64,000 bases of DNA from Streptococcus oralis ATCC 35037 (GTDB lineage Bacteria; Bacillota; Bacilli; Lactobacillales; Streptococcaceae), in NCBI RefSeq assembly GCF_900637025.1, contig NZ_LR134336.1:760001-824000 (forward strand), given 5' to 3'. Position 1 is the stretch's first letter. Each line of letters begins with the position of its first letter. The translations under genes were made by a program, and so were the position numbers. The notes under the pieces were generated by a model, which was given only the letters and a program-made list of their open reading frames with translations, was not told the origin of the DNA and made no database searches. Shown here piece after piece: positions 9,129 through 17,300 of the stretch.

Positions 9129-10439
9129 ATGAGTATGTTTTTAGATACAGCCAAGATTAAGGTCAAGGCTGGTAATGGTGGCGATGGCATGGTTGCCTTT
9201 CGCCGTGAAAAATATGTCCCTAATGGCGGTCCTTGGGGTGGTGATGGTGGACGTGGAGGTAACGTTGTTTTCGTGGTAGACGAAGGCTTACGTACCTTGA
9301 TGGATTTCCGCTATAACCGTCATTTCAAGGCTGATTCCGGTGAAAAAGGAATGACCAAAGGAATGCACGGACGTGGTGCAGAAGATCTACGTGTTCGCGT
9401 GCCACAGGGGACTACTGTACGTGATGCGGAAACAGGTAAAGTCATCACAGACTTGATTGAACATGGTCAAGAATTTATCGTGGCTCATGGTGGTCGAGGT
9501 GGTCGTGGAAATATCCGTTTTGCCACTCCAAAAAATCCTGCACCTGAAATCTCTGAGAATGGAGAACCAGGACAAGAACGTGAGTTGCAACTGGAATTGA
9601 AAATCTTAGCAGATGTTGGTCTAGTCGGTTTCCCATCTGTCGGAAAGTCAACTTTGCTTAGTGTTATCACTTCAGCTAAACCTAAAATCGGTGCTTACCA
9701 CTTTACGACAATTGTTCCTAATTTGGGTATGGTTCGTACGCAGTCAGGTGAATCTTTTGCAGTAGCAGACCTTCCAGGTTTGATTGAAGGGGCTAGTCAA
9801 GGTGTTGGTCTTGGAACCCAGTTTCTTCGTCATATCGAACGCACTCGAGTTATCCTCCATGTCATCGATATGTCAGCTAGTGAAGGACGTGATCCTTATG
9901 AGGACTACCTTGCTATCAATAAGGAATTGGAATCCTATAATCTTCGTCTCATGGAACGTCCACAGATTATCGTGGCCAACAAGATGGATATGCCTGAAAG
10001 TCAGGAAAATCTGAAAACTTTCAAGGAAAAGTTGGCTGCAAACTACGACGAGTTTGAGGAACTTCCAGCCATTTTCCCAATTTCTGGATTGACCAAGCAA
10101 GGGTTGGCGACTCTTTTGGACGCGACAGCTGAATTGTTAGACAAGACTCCAGAATTCCCGATTTATGATGAATCCGATATGGAAGAAGAGACTTACTATG
10201 GCTTTGACGAGGAAGAAAAAGCCTTTGAGATTAGTCGTGATGATGATGCGACATGGGTACTTTCTGGTGAAAAACTAATGAAACTCTTTAACATGACCAA
10301 CTTTGACCGTGACGAATCGGTCATGAAGTTTGCCCGTCAGCTTCGTGGTATGGGGGTTGACGAAGCCCTTCGTGCACGTGGCGCCAAAGATGGCGACTTG
10401 GTCCGCATCGGTAAATTTGAGTTTGAATTTGTAGACTAG
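9129..10439 (+). CDS. obgE: Obg/CgtA GTPase
   Basis: The essential ribosome-associated GTPase, 436 residues. The glycine-rich Obg fold (residues 1-158) is followed by the G domain (GFPSVGKST, then DLPGLIEG and NKMD) and the C-terminal OCT domain. It acts in large-subunit ribosome assembly and in stringent and stress control. In S. pneumoniae it is cotranscribed with cpoA, as the layout here also suggests. A small basic protein gene follows nine bases later. Confidence 0.95.
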
Positions 10440-10448
10440 GAGATTGAT

Positions 10449-10613
10449 ATGGGAGATAAACCGATATCATTCCGAGATGCAGATGGCAATTTTGTTTCTG
10501 CAGCAGATGTGTGGAATGAAAAGAAACTAGAAGAATTGTTTAATCGTCTCAATCCTAAACGTGCTCTTCGATTGGCGCGTACAAAGAAAGAAGAAACACA
10601 GTCAAAGAAATAA
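10449..10613 (+). CDS. small hypothetical protein (54 residues)
   Basis: A 54-residue frame directly behind obgE with ribosome site GGAGATTG. It is acidic in the first half and strongly basic at the end (NPKRALRLARTKKEETQSKK). I do not recognise a family beyond small conserved proteins found after obgE in streptococci. The position before a strong terminator makes it the last gene of the cpoA-obgE unit. Confidence 0.7.
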   Translation: MGDKPISFRDADGNFVSAADVWNEKKLEELFNRLNPKRALRLARTKKEETQSKK

Positions 10614-10617
10614 AAAA

Positions 10618-10650
10618 TTCCCGTGATCTTTTAATCACGGGATTTGTTTT
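10618..10650. terminator. bidirectional terminator between obgE unit and argR
   Basis: TCCCGTGAT at 10619-10627 and ATCACGGGA at 10634-10642 form a perfect 9-bp stem with T-rich sequence on both sides. It serves the rightward obgE unit and the convergent leftward argR gene. Confidence 0.85.
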
Positions 10651-11119
10651 ATTCACTAAAGAAAAATGGCGGCGCATATTTTTTAAGACTCTCAAAACAA
10701 GCCTGCGCTTTTGCAGCATCTTCACAGATAATCATGCAGACATCGTCTCCACAAAGGGTTGCAACGACATCTGGAAAAGCCAAGGAATCAATTACAGATC
10801 CAAATGATTGGGCTAAACCGGGTAAAGTTTTCAAAATAACTTGGTGTTGCACCGGACGCAACATAACAAGAGCATCTTCCATATAATTTTCAAGACGTTT
10901 TTCCCATTTGGAGATAGAGCCTGTATTTAGCACATAGTAAGAATTATCCTCTTCGCGCACTTTTGAAAGGTTCATAGTTTTGATATCGCGTGATAAGGTA
11001 GCCTGAGTAACTTGGATATCATTTTCCGCTAATAAGGCTTGTAATTCAGCTTGCGTATGGATTTTGTTTTTTGAAACGAGGGCGCGGATAAGTTGGTGTC
11101 TGTGTTCTGATTTGTTCAT
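10649..11119 (-). CDS. ArgR/AhrC family arginine-responsive regulator
   Basis: A 156-residue winged-helix repressor. The DNA-binding domain carries the family signature [12 protein letters not shown], and the C-terminal oligomerisation and arginine-binding domain carries LCGDDV, with the two aspartates that contact arginine. Streptococci have several ArgR paralogues with different jobs, so no symbol is given. The start codon at 11119 uses AAAAGGAG, a ribosome site that lies inside a degraded copy of the pepX 3' end. No promoter is obvious directly upstream, so it may be read from pepX. Confidence 0.85.
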
Positions 11120-11130
11120 AAAGTAAGTAC

Positions 11131-11639
11131 TCCTTTTAAAAGGTACAGTAAGCGTGGACTGAACGAAAACGTCAGTCGGGTGGTAGGCGGTATTGTCACG
11201 TATGATGATTTTAAAGTCAGTAGGATAAAGAACTAGATGGAGAGATTCTCCTTCTTTTAACTTTTCACTAGTTGGGTGCAGATAAACTGGGTAGCGATTC
11301 GTTCATCTACATTGATGTTCTTTAATGACAGTGAATCATTCAATTTGGGTAGCTTTTTGTCACGGCGTTTTGTGAATTTACTCTAAATGTAATTCACAGA
11401 GATTTCCAACATGTGGTCTGGTAGCGTGTATGATAAATGGTTACACATGTTGGTTAGAGGGAGTATCTTTTGTCCAAGTTCCGTCTAGGGGCTTCTAAAA
11501 TGCTTTCAGATGAACTGAATTTGATACAAAGTTTATGTCTGATTCGACTGTTCAAGTGGAAAACTTTGGTTATAGGAAGTTCAATGGTCAAATTCATTGA
11601 CTTTTCCTTTGAATCCTTCCATATTGAAAGTCTGGTAGA
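11131..11639 (-). pseudogene. degraded tandem copy of the pepX 3' end
   Basis: This 509-base gap reads as a decayed duplicate of the last 537 bases of pepX (11644-12180). By hand, 39 of the first 57 aligned bases match, from 11141 against 11655, without a gap. Further anchors are AATTCACAGAGATT (near 11390), CATGTGGT (near 11410) and CTTTTGTCCAAG (near 11468). Net length losses of 11 and 10 bases between anchors destroy the frame. The copy ends at 11639, exactly against the pepX stop codon. At its other end it supplies the ribosome site of the regulator gene. A partial tandem duplication, or the tail of an older pepX allele, would explain it. Confidence 0.85.
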
Positions 11640-13922
11640 TTATACCTTTTGACAAGGTAGGATAAGACTAGACTGTGCTAAATCAACAGTCAACTGATAG
11701 TCTGTATTGTCTCGAATTGTAATCTCAAAGTCTGTGGTGTAGAGAACCAAACGGAGAGTATCTCCTTTTTTAAGTTTGTAGATAGTTGGTTGAAGCTCTA
11801 GCTTGAAGTCCATCCATTCATTTGGTTGGATTTCTTCAATCGTCAAGAGATTGGTTCGATTTTGAAGATTAAGGTAGCCTTTGGTGATGACACGTTGGGC
11901 ACTTGGGTTGAATGGCAGTTCACAGAGATTTTCTAACATGTGGTAACGGCCATTATCAATGGTTCTAGCACTTAAAACCGCTGGATAAGGCTGCAGATAT
12001 TTCTTTTGTCCAAGTTCTAGCAGTTGGGCTGATAATAAGCCCTTGTTTGTACTTGATTTGACACGAAGTTTTAGCTCTACTCGCCCATTTAAGTGAATGT
12101 CTTGACTTACTGGAAGGTCAATGGTGATCTGATTAGCTTTTCCTTGGTAAAGTTCGGTGTTGAAGGTCTGGTAAGTCTTACCATAACGATCAAAATCTTT
12201 TTGATCATACTGGTTTTGAATCACTTTTTCCTCATTACCAAGAGAGAAGGTATGCAGTTCATCCTGTTTGCCAAAGTTATCAAGACCTTGCCATTTTTGC
12301 GGTGCGATATTGTCCTGCCAAATGACAGTCGGAAGTTGGTAGCTTGAGTCAAGTCCTAACAATTTCATACTTAACAAGGCATTCATGGACTCGCGGAAGT
12401 CGATCGACTGCCAGTTATTCATATAAACATGGGCACCATGATGGAAAAAGAGGTGCTTATTGATATGGCTAGGAAGGGCATGAAACATCTGGTAAACATG
12501 AAGAGGTTTGACGTTCCAATCCTGGGAACCATGCGTAAAGACGACCTCAGCTTGAACCTTGTGAGCATTGAGCAGATAGTTGCGGTCATGCCAAAACTGA
12601 TTGTAGTCACCAGTCTTGCGATCGAGTTTCTCTTTAACCTTTTCTAAGTCTGCTTGATAAGCTTCATTGCCACGAATATAGTCACCAGCTTGGAGGTTGC
12701 GAGAGTAGGTCAATTCAGCAAGTGAGTCAAAATCCTCACCTGGATAGCCCCCTGGGCTGGTCACTAGACCATTTTCCCGATAGTAGTTGTACCAAGAGGA
12801 AATACCTGCTTCTGCGATGATCACTTCCAAGCCATCAACACCAGTGGTGGCGAGACCATTGGACATGGTACCTAGATAGGAAATACCTGTTGTTGCGACT
12901 TTGCCGTTTGACCAGTCAGCTTTGACTTGGCGTTTGCGCGTGTGGTCCGTGAAAGCACGGCAACGACCATTGAGCCAATCAATGACATTTTTATAGGCCT
13001 CAATCTGCTGGTAGTTACCATTAGTCATGAGTCCTTGAGAATCTTTGGTTCCAACACCCGATACATAGAGATTGGCAAATCCACGTGGGAGGAAGTAGTC
13101 ATTTAGAGTATATGAGCTATTGATATGAGATAGCTTTTCTTCAGCTTCTGAGACGACTTCTGCTTGACTATGAGGTCCGACTAAATTCAGCTTAGGTTCC
13201 TCAAGTTCAATGGTGTGGGGCAGTTTGACCTCAAGCTCCCCTTCCATTTTGTAGAGAGCCTTGTCACTGGCTTTGTCGTTGGTCCCTTGGTGATAAGGGC
13301 TGGCAGTCATAAGAGCAGGTACTTGACCATCGTAACGTGGGCGGATAACGCTGACTTTGACTAAATCAGGGAGTCCATCTTTATCAGTATCCACACGGCT
13401 CTCGACATACACGACTTCACGAATGACATCATGAGTAGAGAAGGTAGCCAAGCTCTTACCGTTAAAGTAGTGGTAGTGATTATCTTCTGAAATGAGTCCA
13501 TCACTAACAAGCTGATCGATGAGCGTATTTCCTTTTTTCGTTCGCGTATTGAGCAATTGATAAAGATTTTCAATGAGATCTCCATAAACAATAGGAAAAC
13601 CAGTTTCTTTACGGAACTGTTCGGCATCCTCAAAGTCAACAAGATAGCTAAATCCTAAAAGTTGAAAAACTACTGTGTAGAAAATCTCCGCAGTTAACTC
13701 ACGGTCTGACTGGAAAAAGGTTACTAAATCTGTTTCTTTATCCGCAGCCAAAGTTGACAAGGCATAATCCGTGTTAGAATAAGTGAAAAAACTCCAACGA
13801 ATGAAGTCTTCAAACTGTCTTTTTAAGGACAGTTGGGGTGACAGCTTTAGACCAAGACCTTCTAATTCCTCAAATCGTTGAGAACTAGTGGTTGGTTGGT
13901 AGCTGAATTGATTAAAACGCAT
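11640..13922 (-). CDS. pepX: Xaa-Pro dipeptidyl-peptidase PepX
   Basis: A 760-residue S15 family serine peptidase that removes X-Pro dipeptides from peptide N-termini and helps release amino acids from proline-rich peptides. The catalytic serine is S348 in GISYLG. The aspartate is in GSQDWN, and the histidine in HHGAHVY. Length and domain order are those of lactic-acid-bacterial PepX, so this copy is intact. It is divergent from dnaE. No terminator is visible after its stop; a decayed copy of its own 3' end follows instead. Confidence 0.95.
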
Positions 13923-14335
13923 GTTTCTCTCCTTTGAAAACAGACTGAATTTATTATATCAAAAAAGAGGGAAAAATGGAATAAATAAACTTAAATGAAA
14001 TAAATTTCTTAAACCAGCATATCTATTTGGTAAGTTATTATAAAATGCTGAATAAATATCATAGAAGTAAGCCTTTTTCTAGAGATTTTTATATGTAAAA
14101 CTGCATATAACTCCTATCTTTATTATTCTTCGTTTGGTATAAATATATCTAAATTTACATTAAAAACTATTATATAATATTAATTTTTGTTTCCTTCCTT
14201 TGAAAAATGAAGAATTTAACAGTAAGAAGAGAAGAAGTTTGTAACTGATGATATTGAAAAGAAAGTGCAGAGTTGCTTCAATATCCAGCTTAAAATGGTA
14301 TAATAGTAGTAAAACGAAAGCAAGGAGGAGAAGTA
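13923..14335. other. pepX-dnaE divergent intergenic region
   Basis: A 413-base AT-rich gap without a gene. Leftward, an extended -10 (TGATATAAT; hexamer complement at 13953-13958) serves pepX. Rightward, TATAAT at 14299-14304 serves dnaE. A further TGGTATAAA (14135-14143) could be a second rightward promoter. A small inverted repeat (TTATATG at 14089-14095, CATATAA at 14104-14110) lies between them. I see nothing else in it. Confidence 0.5.
14296..14304 (+). promoter_or_regulatory. extended -10 promoter of dnaE
   Basis: TGGTATAAT, 31 bases before the ATG at 14336. The ribosome site AAGGAGG is at 14322-14328. No good -35 hexamer is seen. Confidence 0.55.
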
Positions 14336-17300
14336 ATGATTGCACAGCTCGACACCAAGACTGTTTATAGTTTTATGGAAAGTGTGGTTTCGATTGAAAA
14401 ATATGTACAAATGGCTAAAGAGTATGGCTATTCTCACCTTGCTATCATGGATGTGGATAATCTCTATGGGGCTTATCATTTTTTAGAGGTGACTCGAAAA
14501 TATGGAATCCAACCTTTAATTGGTCTTGAAATGACCTTGATCAAAGATAAGGAGAATATTTCTCTTCGTTTTCTAGCCCTATCCACTAAAGGCTATCAAG
14601 AGTTGATGAAGTTATCCACTTTAAAAATGACTGGACGGAAAAATTGGTCTGACTTCACCTCCCACCTCGAAGATGTGGCCATTGTTGTTCCCTATTTTAA
14701 TGGGGTCGAACAGTTGGATTTGGGGGTTGATTATTTTATCGGTGTTAGTCCAGATACTCCTCAAGAAGTCTTTACTAGCCCCATTCTTCCACTCTATCAG
14801 GTCAACTCTTTTGAAAAAGAAGATATTCAAGTTTTACAAATCTTATCAGCAGTCAAGGACAATGTCAGTCTGAGAGAAGTGGATCTGCATTCACAACAAG
14901 GGATTTTTTTACCTGCCTCAGACTTGGAAGCACGGTTTAAAAATCGCTTCCCTCAGGCGCTTGCCAATCTCCAAGGTCTGATAGAGAATGTAAGCTATCA
15001 AATCGACCCAAGTTTAAAACTTCCTCGCTTTAATCCTGAAAGACCAGCAGTAGAAGAACTTCGAGAGAGGGCTGAGCAAGGCTTGAGTGACAAGGGGTTG
15101 ACCTCAGCTATTTACCATGAGCGACTGAATGAGGAATTAGCTGTGATTCATGATATGGGCTTTGACGATTATTTCCTTGTAGTTTGGGATTTGCTCCGTT
15201 TTGGACGCTCCCAAGGCTACTATATGGGAATGGGGCGTGGTTCTGCTGTTGGTAGTCTGGTGGCTTACTCACTGGATATTACAGGAATTGACCCGGTCGA
15301 GAAGAACTTGATTTTCGAGCGCTTTTTAAATCGTGAGCGCTACACCATGCCTGATATTGATATCGACATCCCTGACCTTTATAGGCCGGAGTTCATTCGC
15401 TATGTTCGTGATCGCTATGGCAGTCAACACGTGGCACAGATTGTCACTTATTCGACCTTTGGAGCAAAACAGGCAATTCGTGATGTTTTCAAACGTTATG
15501 GTGTCCCTGAGTACGAATTAACAAATATTACGAAAAAAATCAGTTTCCGAGATACGCTAACGACAGCCTATGAAAAGAATTTACAGTTTAGGCAGATCAT
15601 CAATAGTAAGATTGAATATCAAAAAGCTTTTGAGATTGCTCGAAAGATTGAAGGGTATCCTCGTCAGACCTCTATCCATGCAGCTGGGGTCGTTATGAGT
15701 GACCAAGACTTGACGGACTACATTCCTCTAAAATATGGTGAGGATATGCTCATCACTCAGTATGATGCTCATGGTGTTGAAGCCAATGGACTTCTAAAAA
15801 TGGATTTCCTCGGTTTACGTAACCTGACTTTTGTCCAAAAAATGCAGGAATTGCTTGCGGAGTCAGAGGGTGTTCATCTAAAAATCGAAGATATTGATTT
15901 GGAAGACAAAGAAACTCTGGCCCTCTTTGTTGCTGGAAATACCAAGGGGATTTTCCAATTTGAACAACCTGGCGCCATTCGGCTCTTGAAACGAGTTCAG
16001 CCGCAAGTCTTTGAAGAGGTAGTAGCAACGACATCCCTCAATAGACCGGGGGCAAGTGATTATATTGATAATTTTGTCGCTCGTAAGCATGGTAAAGAAA
16101 AGGTGACGGTGTTAGACCCTGCCTTAGAAGACATCCTTTCATCAACCTACGGTATTATGCTCTATCAAGAGCAGGTCATGCAGGTAGCTCAACGCTTTGG
16201 AGGATTCAGTCTTGGTAAAGCCGACATTCTCAGACGTGCCATGGGTAAGAAAAATGCCAAAGAGATGCATCTGATGAAGGAAGATTTTATCACAGGAGCT
16301 ATGAAATTGGGGCATACAGAAGAAAAGGCCAACCAAGTTTTTGCAGTGATGGAAAAGTTTGCCGGCTATGGATTTAACCGATCCCACGCTTATGCCTACT
16401 CAGCGCTGGCTTTCCAGCTTGCTTATTTCAAGACACACTATCCTGCTATTTTCTTTCAAGTTATGTTGAACTATTCTAGCAGCGATTACATTGTAGATGC
16501 ATTGCAGATGGGCTTTGAAGTAGCTCCCTTAGCAATCAACAGCATTCCCTATCATGATAAAATTGCTCAGAAGAAAATCTATCTGGGTCTAAAAGCCATT
16601 AAGGGAATGCCGAGAGATTTGTCTTACTGGATTATTGAAAATCGTCCTTTCTCAAGCATTGAAGATTTTGTCACACGTCTTCCCAAGAATTACAAGAAAC
16701 TGTCGCTTTTGACGCCTTTGGTTGAACTAGGGCTTTTTGATGAATTTGACAAGAATCGCCAGAAAAACTTAGTCAACCTACCAAACTTATTTGTTTTTGT
16801 TGAGGAATTAGGTGGACTTTTTGCGGATACAAATTATAGTTGGACTGAAGCTGATGATTTTACTGAGGCAGAGAAATTTTACAAAGAGCAGGAACTGATT
16901 GGGGTAGGTATCAGTCCCCATCCTCTCCAAACTCTTGCCAAACAAGCCCTATATCCGACCACTCCAATCACTAATCTAACCGAGGGAGCTCAAGCCACTC
17001 TCCTAGTTGAAGTGCAAAAGATTAAAGTGATTCGAACCAAGAAAGGCGAGAGTATGGCTTTTCTACAGGTTCATGATAGTAAGTCTCGGATGGATGTAAC
17101 TGTATTTTCAGACCAATATAGAAAATTTGCTTCCAATTTATCCGAAGGGAAATTTTACTACATCAATGGCAAAGTTCAATCTCGAGATGGTCGTCTGCAA
17201 ATGATTGCACAAGATTTGAAAGAAGCAGTGGCAGAACGATTCTGGATTCAAGTTAAAAATCATGAATACGATAAAGAGATTTCAAATATCCTAGAACAAT

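Follow-up and report, generated by a model that had tools for sequence, protein, structure and literature searches.

A Frame-Broken Duplicate of the pepX Tail Separates pepX from argR in Streptococcal Genomes and May Have Become a Control Region of argR

Introduction

Partial tandem gene duplications that leave a pseudogene remnant are a known class of rearrangement in bacteria, which usually delete dead DNA. The locus described here, between the gene for Xaa-Pro dipeptidyl-peptidase (pepX) and an argR-type gene, resembles that class in that a same-strand copy lies beside its parent gene, has a microhomology at the join and has lost its frame. It differs from the usual partial-duplicate pseudogenes in being present in at least 36 genomes of several species, between which it has apparently moved, and in evolving slowly in the part nearest argR. 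The closest arrangement without the remnant is the pepX–argR locus of S. pneumoniae and its relatives, in which the gene order is the same but the end of pepX runs into the Shine-Dalgarno (SD) sequence of argR; at such loci 16–18 nt separate the pepX stop from the argR start, whereas readable carriers have about 460–640 nt of remnant there instead. A full-text literature search, covering titles and the beginnings of abstracts and with most subscription papers outside its coverage, returned no description of a pepX remnant.

The operators described for ArgR/AhrC regulators are a second point of comparison. The half-site of the E. coli ARG-box consensus is quoted as TNTGAAT (PMC5291005), and AhrC of S. 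mutans is described as protecting a 20-bp site (PMC9430756).

Results

The Gap Between pepX and argR Is a Broken Copy of the pepX 3' End

The window analyzed is a stretch of 64,000 nt from S. oralis ATCC 35037, and all positions refer to it. The main features of the locus are the following:

11640–13922, minus strand: intact pepX, Xaa-Pro dipeptidyl-peptidase, 760 aa (open reading frame call; NCBIfam NF003783, 1371 bits against a cut-off of 988)
11120–11639, minus strand: the remnant, a second copy of the pepX 3' end with a broken frame (blastn, local alignment, genus survey, tree, frame check)
11130–11135, minus strand: SD sequence of argR, AAGGAG, at the argR-side end of the remnant (sequence)
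10649–11119, minus strand: gene for an argR-type regulator of 156 aa, downstream of the remnant (TIGR01529 argR_whole)

The identities first given to the two genes were confirmed by these profile matches, that of the argR-type protein falling slightly under the cut-off (E 5.6e-36, 123.8 bits against 130.45). The initial annotation, which was made from the sequence alone, also described the gap as a colinear copy of the pepX tail in the same orientation, and pairwise alignment bears this out up to the argR start. When the remnant was searched against the window by blastn, it had one match besides itself, at 11645–12173 (64.4% identity over 539 columns, E 1.9e-43), colinear with the adjacent pepX and on the same strand. 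The local alignment of the two scored 273, compared with a mean of 33.5 and a maximum of 49 for 200 dinucleotide shuffles and 30 for the reverse complement. Stops occur in all three pepX-strand frames of the remnant in 35 remnants, leaving no intact frame, so the frame is broken as had been proposed, and the positions originally given were essentially right. The end of the remnant does supply the argR SD, and this overlap is ancestral, as relatives without a remnant show (see below). One detail had to be corrected: the duplicate does not begin exactly at the pepX stop, since the codons with which the intact gene now ends (AAG GTA TAA, 11640–11648) were made by the junction itself. A conserved open reading frame in the remnant was rejected on account of the stops and the lack of codon periodicity, and an upstream extension of ArgR into the remnant because its frame is not common to the carriers.

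Several further observations were made on the flanking genes. A 12-nt perfect palindrome, CCTTTTAAAAGG (11132–11143), covers part of the argR SD, and CCTTGTACAAGG stands in its place in several S. mitis-type carriers; with either sequence a small hairpin could hide the SD. On the minus strand, 10607–10709 has a sub-threshold Rfam match to a trpB cis-regulatory motif (RF04312, 37.6 bits, gathering score 59) that overlaps the argR 3' end and its terminator-like site. In G023 (C1:1128363–1130629) and at locus L097 (G151), pepX is split or truncated by stops, for which sequencing errors are a possible cause. Two apparently extended pepX frames were discarded: one running through argR in three genomes is a tblastn extension past the stop of a gene that really encodes 757 aa and is followed by an 18-nt gap, and the 834-aa pepX of S. 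oralis DD24 (L075) runs through an assembly gap of N.

Distribution of the Remnant in the Genus

The survey of other strains suggested by the initial annotation was carried out by searching the remnant DNA in 284 genomes of the genus (one per species). There were matches in 106, many of them through intact pepX alone; 80 of these loci were classified by the distance from the pepX stop to the argR start, the other 26 being weak partial matches. A remnant was found in at least 36 of the 284 genomes, a lower bound since remnants too diverged for a DNA match could exist in the unmatched genomes. Where "type" denotes the position in the pepX tree, the carriers comprise 12 genomes of S. oralis-type (the type with which the genome of the window groups), 22 of S. 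mitis-type and two others: G237, whose remnant is divergent, and DD24 of S. oralis, which has the gap of N at this place. Among the remaining classified loci, pepX ends 16–18 nt from argR in 30 (17 S. mitis/pneumoniae-type and 13 S. oralis-type) and overlaps an argR-like start by 50 nt in six, all S. infantis-type, while seven are without argR in the stretch looked at and one has a broken pepX frame.

Two peculiarities were noted among the carriers. The remnant of S. mitis SK642 (L088) has an extra insertion of ~110 nt, giving a pepX–argR gap of 638 nt. For two genomes labeled S. pseudopneumoniae, 843_SPSE (L072) and 888_SPSE (L079), pepX tail and remnant group with the S. oralis-type and the S. 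mitis-type sequences, respectively, and their species labels may therefore be wrong.

Evolutionary Rate and Conserved Elements

The remnant does not evolve at one rate along its length, and two parts were distinguished:

11460–11639, minus strand: pepX-proximal part, neutral-like in S. mitis-type genomes (pi compared with 4-fold sites)
11130–11459, minus strand: argR-proximal part (~320 nt), with a diversity in S. mitis-type genomes about half that of neutral sites (pi comparisons)

These comparisons used an alignment of 32 of the 35 readable remnants, from which L088 (the insertion), L062 (a near-copy of the locus in the window) and L099, the remnant of G237 (too divergent), were left out. 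Among 21 S. mitis-type carriers, pi was 0.273 in the first 200 remnant columns, compared with 0.251 at 4-fold sites of pepX and 0.240 at those of argR (rank test p 0.48), and it fell to 0.136 in columns 201–455 and 0.079 in columns 456–530 (rank tests against 4-fold sites, p about 1e-12 each). The initial description of the copy as decayed thus holds for the pepX-proximal part, which alone shows the neutral evolution of a dead copy in these 21 genomes, but not for the argR-proximal part, which looks constrained in them. By codon position, pi in the remnant was 0.25/0.29/0.29 in the first, 0.16/0.11/0.14 in the middle and 0.13/0.09/0.02 in the last part, with no codon periodicity or third-position excess, whereas intact pepX does show such an excess (0.04/0.02/0.22 in its first part). 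Neither coding nor recent conversion from pepX therefore explains the slow part, and gene conversion from the intact copy was rejected as its cause. The ratio of slow to fast was ~0.5 in three comparisons: within S. mitis-type, of S. oralis-type with S. mitis-type, and of G207 with S. oralis-type. These comparisons have genomes in common, and in the last of them the argR start has also recombined. We consider it somewhat more likely than not that the argR-proximal part is under selection.

Three elements within this part were compared in the 32 aligned remnants, and they are listed in the order in which they are met going toward argR:

11406–11453, unstranded: inverted repeat IR1, arm CCAACATGTG (11406–11415) and complement CACATGTTGG (11444–11453) (arm/loop diversity, exact search of the genus)
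11371–11398, unstranded: inverted repeat IR2, arm TGTGAATT (11371–11378) and complement AATTCACA (11391–11398) (same evidence)
11335–11363, minus strand: promoter-like pair GTGACA–17 nt–AATGAT, directly downstream of the repeats (hexamer conservation)

The arms of the repeats are conserved and their loops are not, with pi of 0.018 and 0.041 in the arms versus 0.182 in the loop of IR1, and 0.008 and 0.036 versus 0.259 for IR2; both arms are exact in 22 (IR1) and 26 (IR2) of the 32 remnants. When the same layout was slid along the alignment, the contrast between arms and loop was matched by 7 of 257 placements for IR1 and 2 of 276 for IR2. Exact matches, with no mismatches allowed, occurred in 24 (IR1) and 28 (IR2) of the 284 genomes, every one of them at the pepX–argR locus, while a reversed control pattern gave 0 and 5 genomes, respectively. 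Both repeats are absent from G237. Judged from these sequences, IR1 and IR2 arose new in the remnant. As to the promoter-like pair, the –35-like GTGACA is identical in all 32 aligned remnants, the –10-like AATGAT in 29, and the 17-nt spacer is kept in all. The counterparts of the two hexamers, variants included, are separated by 27 nt in intact S. mitis-type pepX, and the shorter spacing was set by a 10-nt deletion relative to pepX that all 32 aligned remnants have and G237 does not. Compared with a sigma-70-type promoter (two hexamers with a spacing of 16–18 nt), the pair has 9 of 12 consensus matches, which is at chance level for the region (3 found, 2.9 expected in shuffles). In the sliding controls it stood out only moderately, since 6 of 296 placements were equally conserved and 16 of 296 contrasted as strongly with the spacer.

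A full-length argR is matched by tblastn in 35 of 35 readable carriers although it no longer lies against pepX, and upstream of it conserved elements stand in promoter order. On these grounds the argR-proximal part could quite plausibly be a promoter/operator region of argR. The half-site of IR2, TGTGAATT, fits the TNTGAAT half-site as quoted in PMC5291005, but its half-sites are 12 nt apart instead of the 4 nt of an ARG box, it does not match the full consensus, and it differs from the 20-bp site of S. mutans AhrC described in PMC9430756. A search of the genome of the window for the ARG box TNTGAATWWWWATTCANW (4-nt centre; 16-base core, at most one mismatch) gave no match at this locus. IR2 was rejected as an ArgR operator, the likeness being confined to the half-site.

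A substantial minority position in our assessment belongs to an account with the same duplication and the same spread, in which the remnant is a functionless spacer, its low diversity comes from recombination tracts and a young introgression into S. oralis (described below), and the repeats are accidents or products of template-switch repair. This fits with the observation that S. mitis-type diversity dips at the pepX end and at the argR start as well, and with G237, the most divergent remnant, which lacks a slow middle part, its divergence from the others being as high there as in the first part and lower only in the last. The two parts are also alike in 10 S. oralis-type genomes (0.046 versus 0.041, p 0.90), although equally low diversity fits a young import and says nothing on constraint, and compensatory changes are lacking. 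Recombination is common here and could mimic part of a constraint by lowering diversity locally; the first 20 codons of argR in G207 are nearly identical to those of other S. oralis-type carriers and the rest of the gene is not, a clear signature of recombination at that place. Against a spacer stand the ratio of ~0.5 in the three comparisons, with the overlap of genomes and the recombined argR start already mentioned, the fact that within S. mitis-type most of argR and the first part of the remnant are both old, and the pairing of conserved arms with variable loops, which is unlike a tract-wide sweep.

Probable Transfer Between Species Groups

The initial annotation proposed comparing the remnant with the pepX of other species, and the remnants of the S. 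oralis-type genomes did prove closer to that of another species. Their identity is 75–76% with S. mitis-type pepX and 69% with that of S. oralis-type, as measured on up to 8 remnants and 10 tails from each group. At informative sites, which distinguish the two pepX groups, they match S. mitis-type 22 times, S. oralis-type 8 times and neither 7 times (binomial p 0.016), with a ratio of 13:15 for the S. infantis-type outgroup at the same sites. The counts are 8:6 in the first part of the remnant and 9:1 and 5:1 in the argR-proximal parts, in which the S. mitis-type signal therefore sits. We read this proximity as the result of a later transfer, for which there is a breakpoint in a comparison of 11 S. 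oralis-type carriers, 8 S. oralis-type non-carriers and 14 S. mitis-type carriers. The pepX of the 11 carriers is S. oralis-like until about 30 nt before its end and S. mitis-like from there on; over its last 15 nt the difference is 0.04 when it is compared with S. mitis-type carriers and 0.49 when it is compared with S. oralis-type non-carriers. On the other side, the first 39 nt of the carriers' argR are at 0.06 from four S. oralis-type non-carriers, 0.16 from the other S. oralis-type non-carriers and 0.18 from S. mitis-type. The switch at the pepX end is, as we interpret these sequences, the footprint of homologous recombination, and the approximate extent of the transferred DNA is:

11130–11667, minus strand: tract from an S. 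mitis-type donor, comprising the last ~25 nt of pepX and the remnant to the argR SD (breakpoint comparison)

Since the remnant of the window is nearer to S. mitis/pneumoniae than to S. oralis pepX, recombination with an S. mitis-type donor is its probable source in this S. oralis-type genome.

The trees did not fix the exact branching of the remnants. The best tree joins them with S. mitis/pneumoniae pepX (77/95, not starred), and AU tests reject neither a position outside all intact copies (p 0.44) nor one with S. oralis pepX (p 0.29). The first of these results, the presence of carriers in both species groups and the small excess of 8:6 in the first part would be in keeping with a duplication older than the split of S. 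oralis from S. mitis/pneumoniae that was inherited vertically and lost in many lineages. Such a history is nevertheless unlikely in our judgment, because remnants from different groups have a median divergence (0.206) close to the one found within S. mitis-type (0.191), while at 4-fold sites pepX and argR diverge by 0.52 and 0.69 between groups and by 0.26 within, and because vertical descent leaves both the 22:8 share of S. mitis-type states and the S. mitis-like pepX end of the carriers, not seen in non-carriers, unaccounted for.

The flanking gene has its own pattern within S. oralis-type: L115, L116, L121, L130–L134 and L137 have an argR ~83–86% identical to that of the window and a pepX ~88–92% identical, while in L117, L120, L125 and L135 argR is 97–99% identical. 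It seems that argR itself has been exchanged within S. oralis.

Junction and Origin

When a tree was built from 120 sequences of pepX tails and remnants, all 35 readable remnants fell into a single clade (100/100). This clade lies within the S. mitis/oralis/pneumoniae group, while S. infantis and others branch elsewhere. They also have a common junction, with small variants, that involves two features of the intact gene:

11640–12183, minus strand: source segment of the duplication, from pepX codon ~580 to the gene end (alignment and junction comparison)
11645–11650, minus strand: AAAAGG, vestige of the ancestral overlap of pepX stop and argR SD, at the junction (three carriers keep the 757-aa stop TAA, then AAGG)

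Relatives that lack a remnant have a pepX stop that overlaps the argR SD or lies immediately before it (e.g., TAAAAGGAG and variants). Most carriers have an intact pepX that ends in CAAAAGGTATAA or a close variant; three (L078, L088 and L089) keep the original stop as TAAAAGG and a pepX of 757 aa, and in the window the original stop after codon 757 has become CAA. After AAAAGG follows sequence matching pepX from codon ~580 onward (GGTAAGACTTACCAGACC), with GG common to both sides of the join, an arrangement explicable by a duplicated stretch ending at the original 3' flank. Because the intact copy carries a vestige of the argR SD, it must once have abutted argR, and the stretch from codon ~580 to the argR SD was accordingly duplicated in tandem. 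The same junction would result if two alleles within one lineage had undergone unequal crossover.

Two origins had been put forward in the initial annotation, and the junction together with the single clade of 35 readable remnants favors the first, a partial tandem duplication. The second, an allele replacement in which a divergent pepX came to lie upstream of argR while the tail of the old gene stayed behind, draws on the strong difference between the remnant and the adjacent intact pepX in the window (64%) and on the closeness of the remnant to the pepX of another species. As the founding event it is quite unlikely, given that it is the intact copy that ends in AAAAGG, with the original stop kept there in three genomes, that the readable remnants have one junction position and one clade, and that both copies in S. 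mitis-type carriers, the intact one and the remnant, belong to one species group. A tandem duplication in the S. mitis lineage, followed by transfer, is very probably the history of this locus.

RNA Structure

The whole 520-nt remnant folds better than shuffled sequences (z –2.9). The block containing the repeats had a mean z of –2.2 in 16 remnants (G237, –0.7) versus +0.3 for the homologous pepX block of 19 intact tails, and a second run yielded –1.2 to –2.6 for seven carriers, –0.3 for G237 and –0.6 for the pepX of the window. A structure supported by covariation was rejected, as changes on both sides were found in none of 56 base pairs. On 10400–14500 no Rfam family matched at its gathering score (E up to 1), and of the two sub-threshold matches the one in the remnant, mir-1902, is on the plus strand (21 bits against 80). 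Since the excess of folding in the repeat block comes with no covariation and no Rfam match on this strand, the repeats may be DNA sites as well as hairpins. That the remnant is a small or structured RNA acting in trans and not a control region of argR is very unlikely despite the two fold scores of –2.9 and –2.2, in view of the absence of covariation and of an Rfam match at gathering score, a ~200-nt leader that is hardly unlike its pepX homologue in folding (–1.67 versus –1.34), and a remnant whose minus strand has no terminator-like site.

Discussion

The history we favor would have begun in the S. mitis/pneumoniae lineage, when the last ~180 codons of pepX and the first bases of the argR SD were duplicated in tandem, probably joining at the GG microhomology. 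The upstream copy would have remained the gene, while the copy downstream, no longer connected to the start of pepX, lost its frame, and argR would in this way have been separated from the close pepX–argR arrangement of its relatives. The ~320 nt nearest argR would then have been reused as its upstream control region, in which the predicted order is the two new palindromic sites, the promoter-like pair just downstream of them, the leader of ~200 nt and the old SD. Later, homologous recombination would have moved the element into the S. oralis lineage that contains the window.

The sequences themselves show the homology, the junction, the single clade, the spread, the difference in rate and the conserved repeat arms; from these we infer selection on the slow part, a role for it as promoter or operator, and an action on argR. 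As a whole, the best reading of the locus is that the dead pepX tail may well have become the cis-regulatory region of argR itself after a history of duplication and then transfer. We put forward more tentatively the detailed version, in which the dead duplicate became a new cis-regulatory region that freed argR from the old operon, with palindromes that arose de novo, a 10-nt deletion that produced the 17-nt spacing, and the passing of the module between species by natural recombination. If this detailed version is true, carriers and non-carriers would control argR differently.

As bacteria usually delete dead DNA, a gene remnant of ~500 nt that at least 36 streptococcal genomes from different species have kept, and that has apparently moved between them, is unusual. 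If the conserved part drives argR, the locus would be a stepwise natural record of a regulatory region made from a broken gene copy, and strains of S. mitis and S. oralis with and without the remnant, both kinds of which are found in the same species groups, would differ in the control of argR.
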